64,000 bases of DNA from Sneathiella sedimenti (lineage in GTDB: Bacteria; Pseudomonadota; Alphaproteobacteria; Sneathiellales; Sneathiellaceae). Below the pieces are notes generated by a model that saw only the letters and a list, made by a program, of their open reading frames with translations, was not told the DNA's origin and did not search any database. Of this stretch, positions 16,536 through 20,970 are shown in pieces (within the stretch, counting starts at the first letter, position 1; every line of letters starts with the position of its first letter). The position numbers were made by a program, and so were the translations under genes. Where the stretch lies: the NCBI RefSeq assembly GCF_017313765.1, contig NZ_JAFLNC010000001.1, positions 434,001 to 498,000 of the forward strand, in the 5' to 3' direction.

Positions 16536-17996
16536 ATGAAACACTATGAAGAGCTTACCGGGGGTGAGGGGAGACGCGTTTTTTATCGCGCTGAACGGTT
16601 CGACGCAAAAACCCTGATGAGCAGCATTTCTCCCGTCGTCAAGGTAGACGACAAGGCCTTTGACCTTTTCGATATCAGCATGAGCGGAATTAGCTTCGTG
16701 AGTCCGCAAAATTTTTCATGGCTCGAAGAGATGAACAAGGACGTTCCCTTAAGATTGAACCTGGGAACGACTGAAATTTTTGCAGGCAACGGCAAAATCC
16801 GCCGTATAGAACCGCACGAAAACCAGCACAAGGTTGCCATAGAACTCACTAAGGGATTTCTCGATATACGGAAGATCCTGGACCAACACGATGATTTAGC
16901 GCTTCAGGAGGCGGTAACCGTCGGCCTCGCGGATCAATCCCATCTGGTCCCCGCGTCTTACAAGGAAGCAATCGGCGATGCCGTCTATATGCTGCGTTCC
17001 ATTCACAAGGTATTGGACAAGGTCGAAAAAGACCTCAACTCGGAAGATTCCCGTCGCGATGATCGCATAAAGGATATTATCCTAGCCTGCGAAACAAAGG
17101 CTCTCGCCCGCTGGAAAGAGATTTCCAAAAGATGTTTGAAGATCACCAAGGAACTCGGTGACAATGAGGCGGCAATCGCCGCAACCAAGAAATATACGGA
17201 GTTAGTTTTAACTCCCGAGATTCTGCCCGGCGCGAGCTGGAACCGAGCCTATACGAAACCACTTGGATATCCGGGTGATTATCAGGTCATGAACTATGCG
17301 TATAACCTCAGCCTTGAGGGAGATACGGCCTACGCGAAATTCTGCCATCGGCTCGGCACTTCAACAGGCGAGTTTATTACAACTCGCATGACGATGACGA
17401 AACAGGCAATCGCCAAGCTAAGTATCAAGGCAGCAGAAAAAGGCCTTAAAAGTTTCAAGGTTGCGAGCCTCGGGTGTGGTCCGGCGCAGGAGGTGGCAAA
17501 CTATCTGAAATCAATGGTTCCGCCTCTCGCTATGGAATTTACCTTGATCGATCAGGACCATGACGCCCTTTCCTACGCCTATAACAGCACATACCCGCAA
17601 GTCGCCCAGTTAGACGGAAAAGCCTCGGTCAAGTGTCTGCATGCGACTTTCCTGGAGTTTCTGGCAACCGGAAAGCTCTTTAGGAAGCTGGAGAAACAGA
17701 ACCTTATCTATGCTGTAGGCCTCGCCGATTACCTTGGTAAGAAACGGGCGACGAGAATGGTCGATGACCTCTATGCCAATCTCGCTCCCGGCGGAACGCT
17801 GATCATCGGCTGCATGAGGACTTCAGAAACAAGCCTGGAATGGCAGGTTGAGTATGCCGTGGACTGGACTTTGGTTCACCGAACAGAAGAGGAAATGCTG
17901 GAACTCGCGCATAATCTTGACGATGAAGCCACCCGGGAGATAGCCGTTGATTCAACAGGTCATTGCCATTTGCTGATTATCACCAAACCGGAATAA
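16536..17996 (+). CDS. PilZ-like domain fused to a PhcB-related SAM-dependent methyltransferase
   Basis: A 486-residue soluble protein. Residues about 13-116 look like a PilZ domain: RVFYR (RxxxR, 14-18) then DISMSG (DxSxxG, 46-51), the pair that binds c-di-GMP. A helical linker follows. PLGYPGDY (242-249) is characteristic of the family often annotated as 3-hydroxypalmitate methyl ester (PhcB-type) biosynthesis protein, and LGCGPAQE (312-319) is SAM motif I. The product is unknown; a lipid or fatty-acid methyl ester signal is possible by family only. Start: ATG at 16536; an upstream in-frame GTG (16524) lacks a ribosome-binding site. It converges with a histidine kinase gene. Confidence 0.75.
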   Translation: MKHYEELTGGEGRRVFYRAERFDAKTLMSSISPVVKVDDKAFDLFDISMSGISFVSPQNFSWLEEMNKDVPLRLNLGTTEIFAGNGKIRRIEPHENQHKVAIELTKGFLDIRKILDQHDDLALQEAVTVGLADQSHLVPASYKEAIGDAVYMLRSIHKVLDKVEKDLNSEDSRRDDRIKDIILACETKALARWKEISKRCLKITKELGDNEAAIAATKKYTELVLTPEILPGASWNRAYTKPLGYPGDYQVMNYAYNLSLEGDTAYAKFCHRLGTSTGEFITTRMTMTKQAIAKLSIKAAEKGLKSFKVASLGCGPAQEVANYLKSMVPPLAMEFTLIDQDHDALSYAYNSTYPQVAQLDGKASVKCLHATFLEFLATGKLFRKLEKQNLIYAVGLADYLGKKRATRMVDDLYANLAPGGTLIIGCMRTSETSLEWQVEYAVDWTLVHRTEEEMLELAHNLDDEATREIAVDSTGHCHLLIITKPE

Positions 17997-18043
17997 ACTT
18001 CCCAGAACGGGGACCGGAAATTATCGTCAGGATTTTTCTGGTT

Positions 18044-19504
18044 TTACCCGCGGGCCTGTAGCTTTGTTTCGTCTCCAGTGTGGTGGTTTATCAATCGCTC
18101 CTTCGGGAATTCAACTGTCGCAACGGTGCCTTCTCCCAACTGGCTGTCCAGCGTGATGGTGCCATTGTGCAGTTCCATGATATTTTTGGTAAGGGGCAAA
18201 CCAAGACCCGTTCCCTCGTAATTCCGGGCCATTGAACTTTCAATCTGCACGAACGGAGCAAATACCTTTTCTATATTCTCCGGATCGATCCCTATGCCGG
18301 TATCCTTGATTCGGATCGCAAGATTACCAGAGGAGTCCAGTGCCTCGAACCCAATGGCGACTAACCCGCCCTTGTGAGTAAATTTTACAGCGTTGGAGAA
18401 GAGATTTAGGAACACCTGCACCAGCAGGCGCGGATCACCAATCATGTGATAATCTTGCGCCGGTATATCAAAGGCCAGACGTACGCCGCGTTCCGCCGCA
18501 TGATCCCGAATGATCCGCAATGTTGAATTAACGATATCTACCAAAGATACTTCCTCTTCTTGCAGAACCAGCTTGCCGGCCTCCGCCTTCGATAGGTCGA
18601 GAATATCATTGATGATACTAAGTAGATGTTGTCCACTGACGTTAATGTCCTTGGAGTATTCCTTGTATTGCTCCTTCCCGAGAGGGCCGAACATCTCTTT
18701 TTCAAGAATTTCGGAGAAGCCGATGATAGCATTGAGGGGAGTCCGCAATTCGTGAGACATAATAGCCAGAAACTCGGATTTCGAATGATTTGCCGCCTGT
18801 GCCTTTTCAGCCAGGATATCACTTTTCACCCGCTCCTCATCGAGCGTTTTCATATTGATAAAGTCGCGCCGTTGAGCCAGTTCCTGGAAATAGGCCGCGA
18901 AGACCCCCATCCCCGCAGCCGTCAGGAGGAAAAAGTCATTCGCCATCAGAATGAGTAGGGGAATTGGATTAATCCAAATAGCCGCGATGTGGTATGTCAC
19001 AACAAGAAATGCAGTTACTGATGTTGCGTAAAGAAAACGGGTTGGAGGCAGGCAGCAACAAAAAATGATTAATGGTGTCAGCCCCGCGTAGTAAAGATAA
19101 TTTCCCGGCTCATTGGCAATTGCTGTCATGACAATAATACTGACGCCAGAAGCGAGCATGCAGAACGCGGCTCCCGGTTGGGCCACCGCCGCATAATACT
19201 TCGTGTATGTCATAAATAGCGTGATTAAGAATATGGGTATGGCAATGCCAAACCTGATGAGTAAAGCTGCTTCGAATACTTCCGGAATTACGTAAAAATC
19301 GAGAATAGAGAAGCAAGCATAGATTATCACAGCAGATAGCAGGGACAGGCGCATAACGGCCAAAGACCGCCCGATAGCGGCATCGTTATAGTCACTTTCG
19401 ACGGAACGATCTACAAATCTTAGCGAGAACCTATTGAGCTCAGTCCCATTGAGCACAGATTCAATCGTTGCAAATTGTCCTATAAACCGCAAGTTTGCCG
19501 CCAA
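18044..19504 (-). CDS. Membrane sensor histidine kinase with six-helix input domain
   Basis: A 486-residue kinase. Residues about 50-205 contain six hydrophobic helices; the segment before and in the first helix resembles the membrane input domain of some adenylate cyclases. A short coiled linker leads to HisKA with His251 in SHELRTPLN. The HATPase has N371 in the N box, DTGIGI (401-406) and GTGLGLPL (431-438), so it should be active. No response regulator is adjacent. It ends 47 bases from the convergent PilZ-methyltransferase. The start appears to be TTG with AGGAAG upstream; a CtrA-like box lies 48 bases upstream. Ligand and partner are unknown. Confidence 0.9.
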   Translation of the reverse strand: MAANLRFIGQFATIESVLNGTELNRFSLRFVDRSVESDYNDAAIGRSLAVMRLSLLSAVIIYACFSILDFYVIPEVFEAALLIRFGIAIPIFLITLFMTYTKYYAAVAQPGAAFCMLASGVSIIVMTAIANEPGNYLYYAGLTPLIIFCCCLPPTRFLYATSVTAFLVVTYHIAAIWINPIPLLILMANDFFLLTAAGMGVFAAYFQELAQRRDFINMKTLDEERVKSDILAEKAQAANHSKSEFLAIMSHELRTPLNAIIGFSEILEKEMFGPLGKEQYKEYSKDINVSGQHLLSIINDILDLSKAEAGKLVLQEEEVSLVDIVNSTLRIIRDHAAERGVRLAFDIPAQDYHMIGDPRLLVQVFLNLFSNAVKFTHKGGLVAIGFEALDSSGNLAIRIKDTGIGIDPENIEKVFAPFVQIESSMARNYEGTGLGLPLTKNIMELHNGTITLDSQLGEGTVATVEFPKERLINHHTGDETKLQARG

Positions 19505-19551
19505 TCCTATTTCTTCCTAAAAATTCTTATTAAAAAATATAAGGATTGGTG

Positions 19552-19567
19552 GTTAATTTTATCTTAA
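19552..19567 (-). promoter_or_regulatory. CtrA-like binding site upstream of the histidine kinase
   Basis: On the minus strand the sequence reads TTAAGATAAAATTAAC, an exact TTAA-N7-TTAAC, 48 bases before the kinase start. An overlapping near-match (TTAA-N7-TTAG) occurs on the plus strand at 19564-19578. Confidence 0.48.
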
Positions 19568-19635
19568 ATTAGAGTTAGTTGGTCCTGAGATGGAAAAAGC
19601 TATTTAAGATTGTTTTTAGTTTTATTATATACTCT

Positions 19636-20970
19636 TTATCCTGTTCTTTTGAACCCCGCCGAAAGATATTTCCATACCCATTTGGGATGGTAGAGGGTTC
19701 TTTCTTTCTCTACTAAATGCACAATCTGGTAGAACCTTTCGATAATATCAATCGATGACGATCCCATGATAATGCTTTTCAAACTATTCTTCAGCTTCAA
19801 CCCAAATGGCTTTTTACCGATAGTTTCTGGGTATCTAAAATCCTGGCCGAGCGCCAGATCCCAGGGGGTCGCGAAAATTTTCCGAAGCTCCAAAAAATAG
19901 CTGTTTTTAATGTGAGCCATAGTCTCAATACTGTCGAAGGTCACCCCCCCGATAGATCTGGCAAGGGCTCCAACAGAAAGGGCAGTAACACTCATGCCCT
20001 GGCCAAATAACGGGTTAAGGCTCGTATTTGTATCACCGACCGGTAATATCCCGAGAGGAAAAGCCGGCAAATCGTCGTAGTGACGCCATTGACCATAAGG
20101 AAATTTATGAAGTCGAATGTCACTGAGAATTTTTGCGTTCTTTATCGCCTCGTATATATCGGGCCGGGGAAGCGACTTCGCGAAGGCCAGGAAGCCCTCT
20201 ATGTCCGCAGGCGGGTGCTCGTTATGATAACCTGCGAGCGTCAATAACCATTTACCATTCTCAACCCGCACCAACGTTGAGCCGCGAATTTCCGAGGGGC
20301 CTTTAGGATAAATTAGAATACTTTTCCAGTCTCTGGCTTCATCCGGCAACTCAAGTAGACAACTGGCATATCCAAGATTCACTTTGATGTGATCTTCCGG
20401 CACTTCACCAAATCCCTCGCGCTTTAGCCATCGCGGAAAAAAACTGCCCCTACCCATCGCATCGACAAAGAAATCGCCCGGGAGTGTTTCTTTAGCGCCA
20501 TTCTCCAGGCGAACGACGGCCGCAGCTACCCTTCTGTGTGCGTCGTCCAGCAGGAAGTCCTCAACCCGACATTCATGTATGAGCTCAACATTTGGGAGCG
20601 CCCTGACCTCTTCCCGAAGACAATTTTCAAGAAGAGGGCGCGTCTGGAAATAGATAGTCAGGGACCCTTCAAACCTAGGCATCCATTTTTCATTGATATA
20701 CCAGCGGACTTCATTGCTAAAGTTGCAGGAGACAGCTCCTGCTCGTTCAAGATGCTCCGGTAATCCAGGGAAAATTTCCGTAAGGGCATCTCCCCCGCCT
20801 TTTAGCAATCCATGCACATGGTTCGCTTGTGGTGTCCCTTTTCGGGCCACATTACCGTTTTCAATTTGATCCGGTTCCAAGACCAGTACGCGATCAAATA
20901 TCGCCGATAGAGCTTTAGCTGACGCCAACCCGGCGATACTTCCGCCGGCAATGATCGCAGTCCTTGTCAT
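19636..20970 (-). CDS. FAD-dependent oxidoreductase (aromatic hydroxylase/halogenase-like fold)
   Basis: A 444-residue flavoprotein. The N-terminal Rossmann motif is IAGGSIAGLASAKAL, followed by an acidic residue at the end of beta-2 (VLEPDQ). The second FAD motif is PVGDTNTSLNPLFGQGMS (GD...NP..GQGM), as in class A flavin monooxygenases and related dehydrogenases. The substrate cannot be told. It is transcribed toward the histidine kinase but 131 bases apart, with a CtrA-like box in the gap, so a shared operon is uncertain. The ATP synthase terminator lies upstream. Confidence 0.85.
   Translation of the reverse strand: MTRTAIIAGGSIAGLASAKALSAIFDRVLVLEPDQIENGNVARKGTPQANHVHGLLKGGGDALTEIFPGLPEHLERAGAVSCNFSNEVRWYINEKWMPRFEGSLTIYFQTRPLLENCLREEVRALPNVELIHECRVEDFLLDDAHRRVAAAVVRLENGAKETLPGDFFVDAMGRGSFFPRWLKREGFGEVPEDHIKVNLGYASCLLELPDEARDWKSILIYPKGPSEIRGSTLVRVENGKWLLTLAGYHNEHPPADIEGFLAFAKSLPRPDIYEAIKNAKILSDIRLHKFPYGQWRHYDDLPAFPLGILPVGDTNTSLNPLFGQGMSVTALSVGALARSIGGVTFDSIETMAHIKNSYFLELRKIFATPWDLALGQDFRYPETIGKKPFGLKLKNSLKSIIMGSSSIDIIERFYQIVHLVEKERTLYHPKWVWKYLSAGFKRTG

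Follow-up and report, generated by a model that had tools for sequence, protein, structure and literature searches.

A PilZ-like methyltransferase and a convergent six-helix sensor kinase in Alphaproteobacteria: a probable PhcBS-like signalling locus with exchangeable sensor types

What might be made, and what sensed, by a SAM methyltransferase with a PilZ-like N-terminal domain whose gene ends 47 bases from that of a membrane histidine kinase? The pair lies in the window analysed here, a stretch of 64,000 nucleotides from Sneathiella sedimenti (contig NZ_JAFLNC010000001.1, positions 434,001–498,000), and an initial annotation had proposed that it links c-di-GMP to a lipid signal. Our preferred reading, to which we give a probability of about 0.6, is a PhcBS-like system for fatty-acyl signalling that takes a PilZ-type input. 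A search of the open-licence literature returned no description of this pair.

The methyltransferase is encoded by a plus-strand open reading frame of 486 aa (16536–17996), starting with an ATG at 16536 that is kept in relatives (MKHYEEL). In an AF2 model built from 57 aligned relatives (mean pLDDT 90.2), a disordered arm (residues 1–15) is followed by a six-stranded barrel (33–106), a helix (111–130), a helical linker (126–210; 16911–17165, plus strand) and the methyltransferase domain (211–486; 17166–17993, plus strand). The last carries KPLGYPGDY at residues 241–249 and LGCGPAQE at 312–319; the motif residues on which the initial annotation was built, these two together with R14/R18 and D46/G51, are all in place. 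The whole protein has no usable match among PDB sequences. The matches of a fold search with the AF2 model were filled by the methyltransferase domain, mostly small-molecule methyltransferases, and the search is therefore neutral on the PilZ question. Promoter-like and terminator-like sites at the locus occur at chance level.

The PilZ-like domain covers residues 1–125 (16536–16910, plus strand), that is, the N-terminal arm, the barrel and the helix from residue 111. The model places strands at 33–37, 40–47, 51–57, 69–76, 79–94 and 97–106 (pLDDT about 87–92), followed by the helix at 111–130; the PilZ-like barrel plus helix is judged from this AF2 secondary structure alone. The window protein scores 17.1 bits against Pfam PilZ (PF07238), under the cut-off of 22.5, and 45 of the 57 relatives match that family individually at E ≤ 0.05 (best 1.3e-5). 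Against bona fide PilZ domains of relatives, the profile gives a weak match (E 0.009), and the N-domain profile searched against PDB sequences reaches E 0.59 at best, with a chain of the YcgR flagellar brake at E 1. The proposed pair of PilZ motifs holds in one half: D46xSxxG51 (D46-ISMS-G51; 16671–16688, plus strand) recurs as [DN]xSxxG in 57/57 relatives and is real, whereas RxxxR (R14-VFY-R18; 16575–16589, plus strand) is only partly conserved, R18 and R21 being present in 57/57 relatives while position 14 has R in 31 relatives and K in 12. We accept the domain as PilZ-like, with putative c-di-GMP binding.

Across the gap between the convergent stop codons (17997–18043), the partner kinase occupies 18044–19504 on the minus strand, starts with TTG and contains HisKA and HATPase_c domains. 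Its AF2 model has six membrane helices N-terminal to HisKA, in line with the six input helices that had been read from the sequence. The kinase core (18044–18808, minus strand) tracks the species tree, and the six-helix sensor domain (18809–19504, minus strand) comes in swappable allele types, to which we return below.

The convergent pair is kept in all 20 neighbourhoods surveyed, four of which belong to other families and have no further gene of the window nearby, and also in the loci from a class-wide search, contig ends excepted. The kinase lies convergently 3′ of the methyltransferase in 77/80 named loci, usually at a spacing of 13–225 bases; the three exceptions are one contig end and two loci without an adjoining kinase (L196 and L197). 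Of 385 genomes of the class, 35 from 15 families encode the methyltransferase (E<1e-20), and precisely this set also matches the membrane sensor domain strongly (E<1e-36; Fisher p 1.6e-50, kinship ignored); 18 further genomes match the sensor domain only more weakly. The neighbourhood survey suggested by the initial annotation has thus turned up a near-universal pair. Chance synteny within Sneathiella is ruled out by the four other families and by the co-occurrence in the 385 genomes. None of the three findings that would speak against the earlier proposal (no PilZ fold, an unrelated methyltransferase, a pair not conserved) was made.

Some loci depart from the common arrangement. The two that lack an adjoining kinase are Parvibaculum loci. 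In two others (L185 and L223) the partners stand about 1.1 kb and 2.8 kb apart, still in convergent orientation, and a contig titled Deltaproteobacteria (L215) carries a PilZ-methyltransferase and a convergent kinase with an input domain that does not match the six-helix type.

How near is the locus to PhcB–PhcS, the 3-hydroxy fatty acid methyl ester quorum-sensing system of Ralstonia? Searching the whole phylum brought up relatives of about 460–500 aa in other classes. One such gene, of PhcB type, lies on a Paraburkholderia graminis plasmid in phcBSRQ layout, with genes for a kinase and two response regulators after it. Burkholderia-type loci of this layout, not the Ralstonia sequence itself, are the PhcB/PhcS anchor for all comparisons here. 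The methyltransferase domain aligns with the PhcB-type profile over 258 columns at E 1.5e-39 (hhalign), a remote homology that supports its proposed relation to PhcB-type enzymes, and the KPLGYxGDY motif is common to both. The membrane part of the kinase alone matches the PhcS-type input domain at E 1.4e-10 (0.12 for the reversed-profile control), and the whole kinase aligns with the PhcS-type profile over 384 columns. In identity, the window enzyme is nearer to a cyanobacterial enzyme without PilZ (40%), the highest-identity relative found outside Alphaproteobacteria, than to the Paraburkholderia PhcB-type protein (25%).

The likeness to PhcB–PhcS stands for the parts and fails for the layout. 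Homologous methyltransferase and kinase input domains, a domain N-terminal to the methyltransferase and adjoining genes are common to both systems, whereas here the genes are convergent rather than in one operon, phcR and phcQ are not adjacent, the kinase core is another one, PilZ-like motif residues are present and the sensor forms an allele cassette with a neighbouring enzyme. Because of the convergent order and the lack of adjoining phcR/phcQ-type genes, we class the locus as PhcBS-like and not as a Phc system.

The comparison may also bear on PhcB itself. In Ralstonia PhcB, the R22C substitution, which is not within the methyltransferase domain, delays quorum sensing (PMC6989110). All sequences of our anchor alignment have arginine at position 22, which both ties the anchor to PhcB and suggests that the N-terminal domain is functional. 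In PhcB-type proteins (L133, L134 and L144) this domain is about 100 residues long and matches the N-domain of the window protein weakly in profile comparison (E 9e-4); compared directly with PilZ domains, the PhcB N-domain profile gives no significant match. This domain may be a degenerate PilZ relative, a hint that an overlooked part of PhcB, the site of an adaptive mutation, may be a regulatory relative of the one described here.

Within Sneathiella, the sensor domain and an adjoining gene for an FAD-dependent, monooxygenase-like oxidoreductase (hereafter FADox; 19636–20970, minus strand) exist as two deeply diverged types, A and B, the window being of type A. Between two loci of different type (L042 and L035), identity is 91% for the methyltransferase domain and 94% for the kinase core, but falls to 50% for the sensor and 35% for FADox. 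The replaced block runs from approximately 18850 to 20950 with sharp edges, and the breakpoint falls at about residue 210–225 of the kinase, where the membrane domain ends, in Sneathiella and Parvibaculum alike. Sensor and FADox rise and fall together in pairwise identity (correlation 0.98), with almost no relation to the identities of the other genes. The sensor and FADox trees split by type with full support, every FADox falling in the type of its sensor, whereas the tree of kinase core plus methyltransferase gives two species clades, each with types A and B, so both types are probably older than the split. In AU tests, the kinase-plus-methyltransferase data reject a type A clade (p 3e-71), and the sensor (p 1.5e-11) and FADox (p 3e-6) each reject the species clade; these p-values are descriptive, the type groups having been named after the identities were known. 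Isolates of type A include S. litorea and S. chungangensis, and those of type B S. chinensis and strain HT1-7. Two Sneathiella loci without FADox (L043 and L044) have sensors that are further diverged. In two other kinases of the same genomes both halves track the species, which rules out a generally fast evolution of sensor domains in Sneathiella. A FADox homologue also adjoins the pair in another lineage (L212, L213 and L220), there upstream of the methyltransferase.

Parvibaculum repeats the pattern with a different enzyme. Loci L180 and L181 are 98% identical in methyltransferase plus kinase core and 51% in the sensor, and the same contrast is seen in L170/L195 and L165/L168, with methyltransferase and core identities of up to 98–99% across the pairs. 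Beside the sensor-coding end, one sensor type has a fatty acid desaturase (PF00487, E 1e-21), which is present in 6/6 loci of that type and in 0/11 of the other, a concordance of 17/17; all desaturase-bearing loci are from metagenome assemblies or uncultured organisms. The tree of methyltransferase plus kinase calls for five changes of type, four of them forced by well-supported branches, and the AU test gives p 6e-77. An independent-pairs sign test is concordant in 4/4 pairs, too few for significance. Each of the two genera requires at least four changes of sensor type.

Lipid-related genes recur beside the pair in other lineages too: MMPL exporters and outer membrane proteins of the FadL type (E<1e-84), counted here as raw neighbours. 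In one further locus (L222) a desaturase and a PF10118 protein stand in line with the kinase. The FadL and MMPL neighbours, the desaturase adjoining one sensor type and the six membrane helices would also suit the main rival to our reading, in which the kinase senses the state of the membrane and the desaturase, oxidoreductase and methyltransferase remodel its lipids, with no cell–cell signal at all. DesK-type kinases likewise have a membrane-embedded input and a link to a desaturase, and the likeness here is one allele type with a desaturase nearby. Most loci of the present system are without a desaturase, however, and the kinase is paired with a methyltransferase. The input domain is also remotely homologous to the PhcS type. 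Membrane sensing is further disfavoured by the repeated exchange of discrete sensor types between close species, which is expected for signal specificity instead, and we regard this rival as unlikely. Less probable still, to the point of being improbable, is that a CheR-like enzyme modulated by PilZ methylates the kinase or a partner protein as an adaptation step: sub-threshold CheR matches do occur in 27/57 members, but what they pick up is the SAM fold in general, PhcB-type enzymes are far more strongly related, and the fold matches are mostly to small-molecule methyltransferases, although the fold does not tell the class of substrate. In one further locus (L222) a desaturase and a PF10118 protein stand in line with the kinase.

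The exchanged enzymes themselves could be linkage bystanders or target genes of the kinase rather than tailors of a signal, in which case the product of the methyltransferase might still be sensed. They adjoin the sensor-coding end, so that one recombination tract moves both. Against this stand the 17/17 agreement between desaturase and sensor in Parvibaculum and the match of every Sneathiella FADox to its sensor type, seen with different enzymes in the two genera. We think this account rather unlikely; it competes with the tailoring step alone, and the weight we give it overlaps that of the PhcBS-like reading.

Under the PhcBS-like reading, the methyltransferase would make or finish a signal that is small and hydrophobic, in the simplest case a fatty-acyl methyl ester, and the PilZ-like domain would gate it through an intracellular ligand, plausibly c-di-GMP. 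As the methyltransferase is not exchanged along with the sensor, it could not set signal specificity alone; a lineage-specific tailoring enzyme (the flavin oxidoreductase in Sneathiella, the desaturase in some Parvibaculum) would alter the chemistry of the signal, and the matching six-helix sensor of the convergent kinase would read that variant. Sensor types that move together with a neighbouring enzyme are the pattern to be expected of a lipid signal that varies, and of its receptor. In peptide pherotype systems such as agr and ComQXPA, close relatives exchange discrete receptor variants along with a gene for signal processing. These use peptide signals, whereas the enzymes beside the present sensors point to a lipid, and the methyltransferase stays put; if our reading is right, the locus would be for lipids what pherotypes are for peptide signals, and would link c-di-GMP and autoinducer synthesis within one protein. 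The natural type swaps in near-identical backgrounds, such as L180 versus L181, would then make the specificity of signal and receptor directly testable. CqsA/CqsS and LqsA/LqsS resemble the present pair in that a synthase gene adjoins that of a multi-helix membrane histidine kinase, and the CqsS input domain has six spans (PMC4821796). Their synthase chemistry is different.

Where the kinase sends its output is suggested by its core, which is closest to a subset of kinases of the same genome with the pattern FG-x-x-G...Y..Y..DI..SG.HLL. This pattern we take to be that of the PleC/DivJ/PdhS group. In other alphaproteobacteria, kinases of this type target DivK and PleD (PMC7003649). Given the resemblance, output may run through DivK/PleD, which we offer from sequence as a lead and not as a result; as PleD makes c-di-GMP, a loop onto the PilZ domain would then close. 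A more speculative proposal, possible rather than probable, is a widespread system of lipid quorum sensing in Alphaproteobacteria: a c-di-GMP-gated synthase would make one fatty-acyl ester common to the types, exchangeable cassettes of sensor and tailoring enzyme (desaturase or flavin oxidoreductase) would render the types mutually deaf, and DivK/PleD output would return c-di-GMP to the synthase.

The same lead arises from a cyanobacterial version of the pair. On plasmid pPSE7367.01 of Pseudanabaena PCC 7367, the methyltransferase without PilZ, whose 40% identity extends over residues 216–485, is convergent with a kinase, the two genes overlapping by 4 bases (L143, 5959–8578), and that kinase is 36% identical over nearly its full length to one alphaproteobacterial pair kinase. 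A single-domain response regulator adjoins it. The best match to this regulator in the Sneathiella genome (42% identity, E 5e-30; next best 4e-17) adjoins a gene for a REC-REC-GGDEF protein, and from their sequences we read the two as a putative DivK–PleD pair. The plasmid-borne methyltransferase and kinase lie near recombinase and Tn3 transposase genes.
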